From Gammaproteobacteria bacterium (GTDB taxonomy: Bacteria > Pseudomonadota > Gammaproteobacteria > Chromatiales > Chromatiaceae): a stretch of 38,897 nucleotides of DNA. A program made the position numbers and the translations under genes. Below, piece by piece: positions 19,501 to 33,466 of this stretch. Each line of letters begins with the position of its first letter. The first letter of the stretch is position 1. The notes below the pieces were generated by a model that was not told the origin of the DNA, made no database searches, and saw only the letters and a list, made by a program, of their open reading frames with translations. The stretch is from assembly GCA_024276875.1 (NCBI GenBank), contig JAJRWL010000077.1:1-38897 (forward strand), in the 5' to 3' direction.

Positions 19501-20250
19501 TTAAGCCTTTGCTGGCTCTTTTACTTCCACAAACTCATCTTCCGCAGCAGCACCCATATGAGCTGCACTGGCCTTACCTTCGAGTGCAGCGGCGGCGGCG
19601 CTCTGCACATAAAGCTGAATAGCACGCATAGAGTCATCATTACCAGGAATGACATAATCAATATTGTCTGGTGCATTGTTGGTATCAACGACACCAATAA
19701 CAGGTATACCTAATTTGACCGCTTCGCTGACGGCAATGTCTTCATTGCCAACATCAATCACAAACAGCGCATCAGGAATACCACCCATATTCTTAATACC
19801 GCCTAAACTGCGCTCCAGCTTTTCCATCTCGCGGCGCATGCCCAAGGCTTCTTTCTTATTGAAACGCTGTTCAACGCTACCATCTTCAAACATGGCCTCA
19901 AGCTCTTTCAAGCGCCGAATAGACTGCTTGATGGTTTTGAAATTGGTGAGCATACCGCCCAACCAGCGGTGATCAACAAATGGCATGCCGCAACGTAGCG
20001 CCTCGTCTTTGATGACCTTTGAAGCTGCTCGTTTGGTGCCAACAAATAAAATCTTGCCGCCATTAGCAGAGAGAGAGCCAATAAAATTCATGGCATCATT
20101 GAAGAGTGGAAGTGTTTTTTCCAGATTAACAATATGAATTTTGTTACGCTGGCCAAAGATGTAAGCACCCATTTTTGGGTTCCAGTAACGGGTCTGATGA
20201 CCAAAGTGCACGCCTGCTTCAAGCATTTGGCGCATAGAAACTGCACTCAT
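19501..20250 (-). CDS. rpsB: 30S ribosomal protein S2
   Basis: [41 protein letters not shown]. Confidence 0.98.
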
Positions 20251-31533: not shown

Positions 31534-31848
31534 TTATTTTTTTGCGGCCACTTTTTTCTTGGCTTTACGACGAGGTTTCTTGGGGGCTAAAGAGATGGCA
31601 TATTTTGCGGCTGCATCTTTAACTCTACGCGTCAGAAACTTATTAACGTCAGCCTGAGAAGACTCTAGCAATTTTAAAAGCACAGACACATTACGTTCAC
31701 CTGCTTTAATCGTCTTTTTAAGCTCACGAACCTCATCCTTAGCTGCTTTTAGCTGCTCGCGAAGTGAAGCGACAACATCCGTTCCTTTGGTTGCGCCTGC
31801 TTTTTTCTTTACTACCTTCTTCTTTGCTGCTCTTTTCTTAATCGCCAT
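31534..31848 (-). CDS. Small Lys/Ala-rich basic protein, histone H1-like/AlgP-like tails flanking a coiled-coil core
   Basis: MAIKKRAAKKKVVKKKAG... and C-terminal APKKPRRKAKKKVAAKK; own terminator downstream. Confidence 0.75.
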   Translation of the reverse strand: MAIKKRAAKKKVVKKKAGATKGTDVVASLREQLKAAKDEVRELKKTIKAGERNVSVLLKLLESSQADVNKFLTRRVKDAAAKYAISLAPKKPRRKAKKKVAAKK

Positions 31849-32221
31849 CAGATATACCTCATTATTGTGGTTACAAATAAATCATTAGTGACTTTACTTT
31901 TTATTTAAGATAAAGCCTCAAGATTTTTACCCCTTGCTACGTCCTTATAACAAAAGCATATAGAGCTACCAATGATACAAATAATTAATAAAGTAAAATT
32001 TAGCTCCGAATCCTTTCCAAGATTTTAGAACAACTTTGAAATATGTAAATATAGGAAACTAATAAAAGCGTTATTTATTTGCCATTATCAACATAGAGAG
32101 CATGATTTACAACTGTATAAATCTCTTTTTATAACGTGCGTGTCTGTGTTTTTTATTCAACCACCCTAAAATTTAATTATAAATTAATCAAAAAGACGCA
32201 ATAAAAACCAAAAATGCTAAA

Positions 32222-32233
32222 CTTAATATTAAG
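32222..32233. repeat. 12-bp palindrome CTTAATATTAAG in the upstream region of the NifS-like gene
   Basis: Perfect self-complementarity, 21 bp before the ATG at 32255. Confidence 0.4.
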
Positions 32234-32254
32234 CAAATAACGACAGCGATCATC

Positions 32255-33466
32255 ATGAACAAACAATCAATAGCATATAAAAATTCAAATAACCTGTTGG
32301 AGAATAGCAATACAGACACTACAGCAGATATTATATATTTAGATAGCGCCGCACGTACTCGCATCGATTTACGCGTTCTTAATGCAATAAATGGCAGCTA
32401 TCTTAAACACTACAGCGACCCTCAAAACAGGCAGCATATACTGGGGCAACAAGCTGCTGATGCCATATCAAATGCACAATTAAAGATAGGCAAAAGCATT
32501 GGCGGTAACCCACAAGGCATCGTCTTTGCTGGTGGCGCAGCAGAAGCTAATAATCTCGCTATTTTTGGTGCGGCAAGAGCGGCTCCTGAAAAACGCCACA
32601 TCATCACTTTTGAAACGGAACCTCCTTCTGTTTTTGCCCCTTGTAAATTATTAGAATCTGAATTTGGATACACATTATCTGTGTTAAGTGTTGATTCATT
32701 AGGTCAAGTTGACGCTACGGAAGTTATGCGCTGCATCACTGATGACACTCTTTTTGTATCACTCTCTTATGTAAACAAAGAGATCGGTACCATTCAGGAT
32801 ATCTCAGCAATAAGCAGCATGACACAAATCCATGGTGCTTTACTGCATTCCGACTGTTCGTTAGCACTTGGGCGAGTCCCTATTGATGTAAAGCATCAAC
32901 TTATTGATTTACTCACAATATCAGGGCACAAAATACATGGCCCCTATGGTGCTGGCTTTGTATGGGCGAGGCCAGATATTGCCTTTATAGCAGCATCAGG
33001 CGGAAGAAAAACACCGCATGGCGTACAGTCATATAACCTTGATGTACCCAATATTGTGGGGCTTGGGTTGGCCACAGAACTTGCTGGCTCTGAAATAAAA
33101 ACCACATCGGCCAAATTGCAGAAATTAACCCTCCATTTAAAAAATAAATTACATCAGGCAATCGACAACATACATATCGTGACACCCGAAAATAAGGCTA
33201 TTCCAGGCATTTTGTATTTATCTATTGAAGGTGTTGAGAGCAATGACTTAATTGCAGCGGTTGATGGTGTCGCATTTTCAGCTGGACTGGCATCCAGTGT
33301 TGGCAAAACAAAACCCGACAGAGCCGATCGTGCTTTAAGCCTTCCTCCTGAAGAAGCGTATAATTACATTCGCCTAAGTCCAGATAAAAATTTAACGCAG
33401 GAGCAGATTAATACCGCCGTCACTCGCCTCGCTGTTGGTGCAAAAGCACTACGATTAAAATCATAG
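32255..33466 (+). CDS. NifS/IscS-fold (class V aminotransferase) protein lacking the catalytic cysteine
   Basis: IscS-like alignment throughout (YLDSAARTRID, TEPPSVFAPCKLLE, SYVNKEIGTIQDI, TISGHKIHGPYGAGFVWAR); PLP Lys retained at residue 226, active-site Cys loop replaced by FSAGLASSVGK. Confidence 0.88.
   Translation: MNKQSIAYKNSNNLLENSNTDTTADIIYLDSAARTRIDLRVLNAINGSYLKHYSDPQNRQHILGQQAADAISNAQLKIGKSIGGNPQGIVFAGGAAEANNLAIFGAARAAPEKRHIITFETEPPSVFAPCKLLESEFGYTLSVLSVDSLGQVDATEVMRCITDDTLFVSLSYVNKEIGTIQDISAISSMTQIHGALLHSDCSLALGRVPIDVKHQLIDLLTISGHKIHGPYGAGFVWARPDIAFIAASGGRKTPHGVQSYNLDVPNIVGLGLATELAGSEIKTTSAKLQKLTLHLKNKLHQAIDNIHIVTPENKAIPGILYLSIEGVESNDLIAAVDGVAFSAGLASSVGKTKPDRADRALSLPPEEAYNYIRLSPDKNLTQEQINTAVTRLAVGAKALRLKS

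Follow-up and report, generated by a model that had tools for sequence, protein, structure and literature searches.

The window, by which we mean the whole stretch of 38,897 nucleotides analysed here, carries a gene for a protein of the IscS/NifS fold that lacks the catalytic cysteine of cysteine desulfurases (the Cys-less protein). Its open reading frame was found exactly as a preliminary description of this DNA had given it. The gene and its immediate surroundings are as follows.

31534-31848, minus strand, H1-like gene, divergent and upstream of the Cys-less gene
31849-32254, no strand assigned, intergenic region common to the Cys-less gene and the divergent H1-like gene, considered for its conservation
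32255-33466, plus strand, gene for the Cys-less protein of the IscS/NifS fold, open reading frame of 403 aa from ATG to TAA
33479-34228, minus strand, YcgR-like PilZ gene, converging downstream of the Cys-less gene

Beyond the PilZ gene lie a methyltransferase gene and then metZ, purF, cvpA and dedD. With PBP1b, H1-like, PilZ and metZ genes as its neighbours, the Cys-less gene stands alone; as previously stated, no Isc or Suf genes are adjacent, and the gene lies outside any isc, suf or nif operon. On the strand opposite the gene, the only open reading frame is a chance frame of 83 aa. The conserved core of the protein starts at about residue 24, the first 24 residues being variable, and the position of the start codon is uncertain because in one of the orthologous genes (in G004) the aligned codon is not ATG. 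Conservation in the intergenic region is highest in a block at 32022-32049 (minus strand, TTTACA-16-TAAAAT), some 170 bases ahead of the H1-like gene; this block is probably the promoter of that gene, not of the Cys-less gene. A promoter of the latter was not identified within the conserved upstream region, and no riboswitch or structured RNA was found upstream of it. Elsewhere in the window, a t44 RNA (Rfam RF00127; 20279-20369, minus strand) precedes rpsB (19501-20250, minus strand) and is an ordinary ribosomal-protein leader.

The sole Pfam domain of the Cys-less protein is Aminotran_5 (PF00266), with 176.6 bits against a cut-off of 21.5. The NCBIfam models for NifS and IscS matched it from end to end with 258 and 255 bits, values that lie far below the respective cut-offs of 530.75 and 643.2, and its identity to real desulfurases is 33-36%. 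Its solved relatives NFS1 and IscS aligned over residues 27-400 (phmmer E ~1e-59). An AlphaFold prediction from the six orthologues alone was useless (pLDDT 35), and it was rerun with 48 added viral-contig homologues. The resulting 54 sequences gave a model with pLDDT 86.4 and pTM 0.86, in which residues 1-21, the flap around 241-260 and the catalytic loop 345-355 are the weak segments. The best Foldseek matches of this model were NFS1 complexes (TM 0.89-0.90) and E. coli IscS (TM 0.86-0.89), at about 2 Å and 32-34% identity. Since most rows of the alignment are active-type desulfurases, the model is pulled towards their fold, and what it shows is compatibility with the desulfurase fold, not proof of details. 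The end-to-end alignment with IscS and NifS that had been proposed earlier is borne out by the homology searches and the model fold alike. Membership of fold type I is indicated by the PF00266 domain and the fold match, together with the Schiff-base lysine and the PLP-N1 aspartate, which are present in all six species; the length of the catalytic loop is of the class I type. The PADLOC models for DndA and SspA also matched the protein (305 and 293 bits), but this match is generic because the ordinary IscS of the same genome scores twice as high (609 bits). An identity as the DndA/SspA desulfurase of DNA phosphorothioation was rejected, there being no dnd or ssp neighbour genes.

To compare active sites, the six orthologues were placed in one alignment with E. 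coli IscS and another 79 homologues. For E. coli IscS we used what we take to be the correct sequence, the numbering of which was checked on K206, C328, H104, D180, Q183, T76 and T243. The relevant positions, all on the plus strand, are listed below with their IscS equivalents.

32354-32356, plus strand, R34, replaces T12 (Thr in 78 of 79 homologues)
32540-32542, plus strand, A96, replaces the PLP-phosphate Thr76 (Thr or Ser in 79 of 79 homologues)
32621-32623, plus strand, P123, replaces His104 (PLP stacking, acid-base)
32777-32779, plus strand, K175, replaces the pocket Asn155
32852-32854, plus strand, D200, retained (Asp180, PLP N1)
32861-32863, plus strand, L203, replaces Gln183 (PLP O3')
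32921-32932, plus strand, SGHK motif, residues 223-226, in which K226 is the retained Schiff-base Lys206
33035-33037, plus strand, N261, replaces Thr243 (which contacts the phosphate from the other subunit)
33275-33304, plus strand, FSAGLASSVG, residues 341-350, equivalent of the catalytic loop, in which S347 (33293-33295) replaces Cys328
33371-33373, plus strand, R373, retained (Arg354, substrate carboxylate)

At five positions the IscS residue is present in 79 of 79 homologues and replaced in 6 of 6 species, the changes being C328S, H104P, N155K, Q183L and T243N; T76 has likewise become A96 in all six. Three residues expected of a functional desulfurase are absent throughout: the loop cysteine is Ser347, and His104 and Gln183 are Pro123 and Leu203, in each of the six species. 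Further changes near the pocket are T12 to R34, Y337 to R/K356 and S326 to L345. By contrast, the equivalents of K206 (K226), D180 (D200), H205 (H225), S203 (S223) and R354 (R373) are retained in all six species. Because these losses and retentions match it, the residue description given previously (loop Cys lost, His to P123, Thr to A96 and Gln to L203, with K226, D200 and the Arg kept) was right, and the reported change of VNNEIG to VNKEIG can be specified in that N155 itself becomes K175. The C-terminus of the protein corresponds to about residue 384 of IscS, and R220, R223 and R225 of IscS are lost. When positions that are universal among the homologues were considered, 5 of 9 had changed in the active site compared to 15 of 50 elsewhere, a difference that is not significant (Fisher P = 0.13).

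The desulfurase activity of E. coli IscS depends on each of H104, D180, Q183, K206 and C328. It is abolished by changes at H104, Q183 or C328, and changes at D180 or K206 block the reaction with the amino acid; PLP or adducts of it are still found on the Q183E and H104Q proteins (PMC9978102). Judged from the alignment, the residues retained in the Cys-less protein are the set that serves PLP and the aldimine, and those lost are the ones needed for the sulfur steps. We consider it very improbable that the protein works as a desulfurase by means of another cysteine, for example C201 beside D200 or C260 of the flap. C201 is invariant and C260 occurs in 4 of the 6 species, but C201 adjoins the PLP-N1 aspartate and would be no substitute, because a cysteine is also found there in desulfurases that retain the loop cysteine. 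Moreover, position 260 is Tyr in the window protein, and His104 and Gln183 would still be absent. The earlier statement that no cysteine follows residue 201 holds for the window protein but not for its relatives, which have non-conserved cysteines at 260, 278 or 300; in the six-species alignment, no cysteine after residue 201 is common to all species, and no conserved cysteine occurs elsewhere in the catalytic loop.

The Cys-less gene is present in every genome of the genus that we examined (six species, 73-94% pairwise identity), and in all six it lies between the H1-like and PilZ genes. The clade with the same Cys, His and Gln losses that the preliminary description had envisaged therefore exists, with identical substitutions in its six species. 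The six frames contain no internal stop or frameshift, and their only difference in length is a three-residue N-terminal deletion. Values of dN/dS (Nei-Gojobori, six pairs) range from 0.084 to 0.158; as dS is saturating in the distant pairs, the closer pairs, with values of 0.095-0.158, weigh most. The range resembles that of the neighbouring PBP1b gene (0.063-0.115); PilZ has 0.095-0.142 and metZ 0.05-0.06. The Cys-less gene is under strong purifying selection and shows no decay. In the pocket, 11 of 11 tested positions are identical in the six species, as opposed to 251 of the 379 columns in total (hypergeometric P = 0.010), a pattern that we read as a pocket that was altered and then held. 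With only six species, all close to one another, the sampling is shallow, and the invariance of K226 or D200 alone is weak evidence. Viewed in a single genome, the loss of catalytic residues resembles the decay of a desulfurase copy, but the notion of a recent pseudogene or an annotation accident is hardly credible: the gene is intact in six species, with a dN/dS of about 0.1, identical substitutions and the same locus. The conservation data refute it, and the tree described below also speaks against it.

To trace the origin of the gene, profile and protein searches were run against relatives and across the order, the class and the phylum, covering about 930 different genomes in all, and they returned no relatives closer than ordinary desulfurases; in these searches the best outside match scored 248 bits compared to 843-858 bits inside the genus clade. 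A pattern scan of the genomes of 84,980 species, which detects close relatives only, found this genus and distant desulfurases alone. No plasmid match exceeded 36% identity, and a plasmid origin was rejected with this value as the best match. The catalytic cysteine is retained in every one of the 79 aligned homologues and in the viral-contig homologues. In the tree, the six species group on a long third branch that lies between IscS and the NifS-like enzymes, with a stem of 4.3 changes per site compared to crown paths of 0.25-0.6. The IscS group excludes the clade with an SH-aLRT of 96, the other side being unresolved (85). Because the tree separates the clade from the IscS group on a long stem, we regard the gene as an old, fast-diverged paralogue and not as a copy of the iscS of the genus; a recent iscS duplicate is rejected by the tree. 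An earlier tree seemed to join the clade to a Planococcus protein, but this was due to long branches meeting. When an empty site by which to date the insertion was sought in sister genera, the PilZ gene was found to have different neighbours there. The Cys-less gene is also carried by contig JAKISI010000070.1 of a metagenome-assembled genome named 'Candidatus Polarisedimenticolaceae' (Acidobacteriota). This appears to be the same genome as that of one of the six species (G002), for which reason its public name looks wrong. In Candidatus Comchoanobacter bicostacola we noted an IscS-like protein (L038, 6001-6636 and beyond) that is highly diverged and sits on a very long branch; it has an HICNETG motif and a CQQSASCHQQG loop and still retains the cysteine.

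The same genomes contain a separate iscS in an isc operon. This gene, the presence of which had been suggested as a check, adjoins iscR-, iscU- and iscA-like genes in the genome of the window, is 92-96% identical among the species compared and has all desulfurase motifs in each genome. It is intact in five of them; in the assembly of the sixth (G005; contig C151, L235 1225-2439) an in-frame stop divides it into frames of 265 and 132 residues, which may be an assembly or sequence error. The genome of the window also encodes a second protein of the class V aminotransferase fold, with a weak kynureninase C-terminal match (contig C219, L003 467-1603).

Based on the present data, the Cys-less protein probably does a job different from that of IscS. 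The proposal that it is no standard desulfurase and is selected for another role is well supported, since the tests suggested for its refutation (relaxed dN/dS, frameshifts in sister strains, an active cysteine elsewhere) were run and none refuted it. The explanation that we favour, and consider fairly probable, is a neofunctionalised homologue of group I desulfurases that has probably kept the PLP-lysine aldimine, has no desulfurase cycle and has acquired a more basic pocket. The subunit is predicted to fold as a class V aminotransferase. To judge from strict conservation, PLP would probably form the internal aldimine on K226 and be held by D200, S223 and H225, and R373 would still grip the alpha-carboxylate. 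The loop cysteine that accepts the sulfur, the His104 that orients and protonates and the Gln183 at O3' are all lacking, and without them the desulfurase cycle should be impossible. N155K and Y337R/K would add positive charge near the substrate site, and T12R possibly likewise; such a more basic site (K175, R/K356 and possibly R34) suggests a more anionic amino-acid ligand. This ligand would serve either another PLP reaction or sensing or scaffolding without turnover, so that the protein may act as a regulatory or scaffold partner or catalyse a different PLP reaction. More specifically, and only tentatively, the sequence raises the prospect of a new PLP-based amino-acid sensor or enzyme on the group I scaffold, from which persulfide chemistry has gone and in which K175 and the other basic residues accommodate an anionic substrate.

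It is also conceivable that the protein has ceased to bind PLP, given that the PLP-stacking histidine and two phosphate contacts have been lost. It would then be a true pseudoenzyme that serves solely as a protein partner and might, for instance, pair with IscS or its partners or titrate them. H104P, Q183L, T76A and T243N do strip away the stacking and several PLP contacts, the flap and the catalytic loop are the poorly modelled parts, and the desulfurase-dead IscS of Archaeoglobus fulgidus, whose sole contribution to an Fe-S cluster is a cysteine ligand (PMC7585200), provides a precedent. We nonetheless consider this explanation unlikely, as K226, D200, S223, H225 and R373 were retained despite very long divergence, the gene is in no isc operon and the features on which IscS partners dock are absent. 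Deletion of the C-terminal segment of IscS stops IscU binding (PLoS Biol 2010, PMC2854127). Since this segment is mostly missing beyond about residue 384 and R220, R223 and R225 are lost, it is unlikely that known IscS partners dock on the Cys-less protein in the usual way.

Less likely still is a Cys-independent C-S lyase, or another PLP enzyme acting on sulfur amino acids. The sulfur amino-acid synthesis gene metZ is only three genes away, but it forms no operon with the Cys-less gene because the PilZ and methyltransferase genes intervene on the other strand. The model scores point to class I NifS/IscS and not to EgtE or another lyase, and a change of His to Pro together with Gln to Leu is unexpected in a working lyase. 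What favours a lyase is the cyanobacterial enzyme C-DES, which works without an active-site cysteine (PMC8300815).

With the neofunctionalised homologue as the preferred explanation, the clade shows the two halves of the IscS mechanism separated by nature: the residues for sulfur transfer have been lost and the PLP-lysine machinery is frozen. Few descriptions exist of pseudoenzymes among PLP proteins, and none of desulfurase or class V pseudoenzymes was found in the literature searched, most of it other than subscription papers. There is also a warning for automatic annotation, because this protein will probably be given the label 'cysteine desulfurase' wherever it turns up.

The Cys-less protein resembles IscS, NifS and NFS1 in its fold, full-length alignment, class I loop length, the Lys, Asp, Ser and His residues for PLP and the carboxylate Arg. 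It differs from them in lacking the catalytic Cys, His104, Gln183, Asn155, Thr76 and Thr243, and from IscS also in its missing C-terminal extension for IscU docking and its position outside isc, suf and nif operons. The IscS of A. fulgidus and IscS1 of Methanosarcina lack the PLP lysine, and the cysteine of the former is an Fe-S cluster ligand (PMC7585200). Here too an IscS homologue was kept after losing a catalytically essential residue; however, the inactive IscS of the A. fulgidus type lost the lysine and kept the cysteine, whereas the Cys-less protein has the opposite pattern. The L-cyst(e)ine C-S lyase C-DES of Synechocystis is active and monomeric and makes the persulfide on the product, not on the enzyme (PMC8300815). 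It shares with the Cys-less protein a class V fold without an active-site cysteine, but the Cys-less protein scores as class I and has no PLP-stacking histidine. As aligned, the combination of retained Lys, Asp and Arg with replaced Cys, His, Gln and Asn, fixed across the genus, matches neither precedent, and for this reason we place the protein, as a descendant of IscS/NifS, in class V (fold type I), and not among the cysteine desulfurases.
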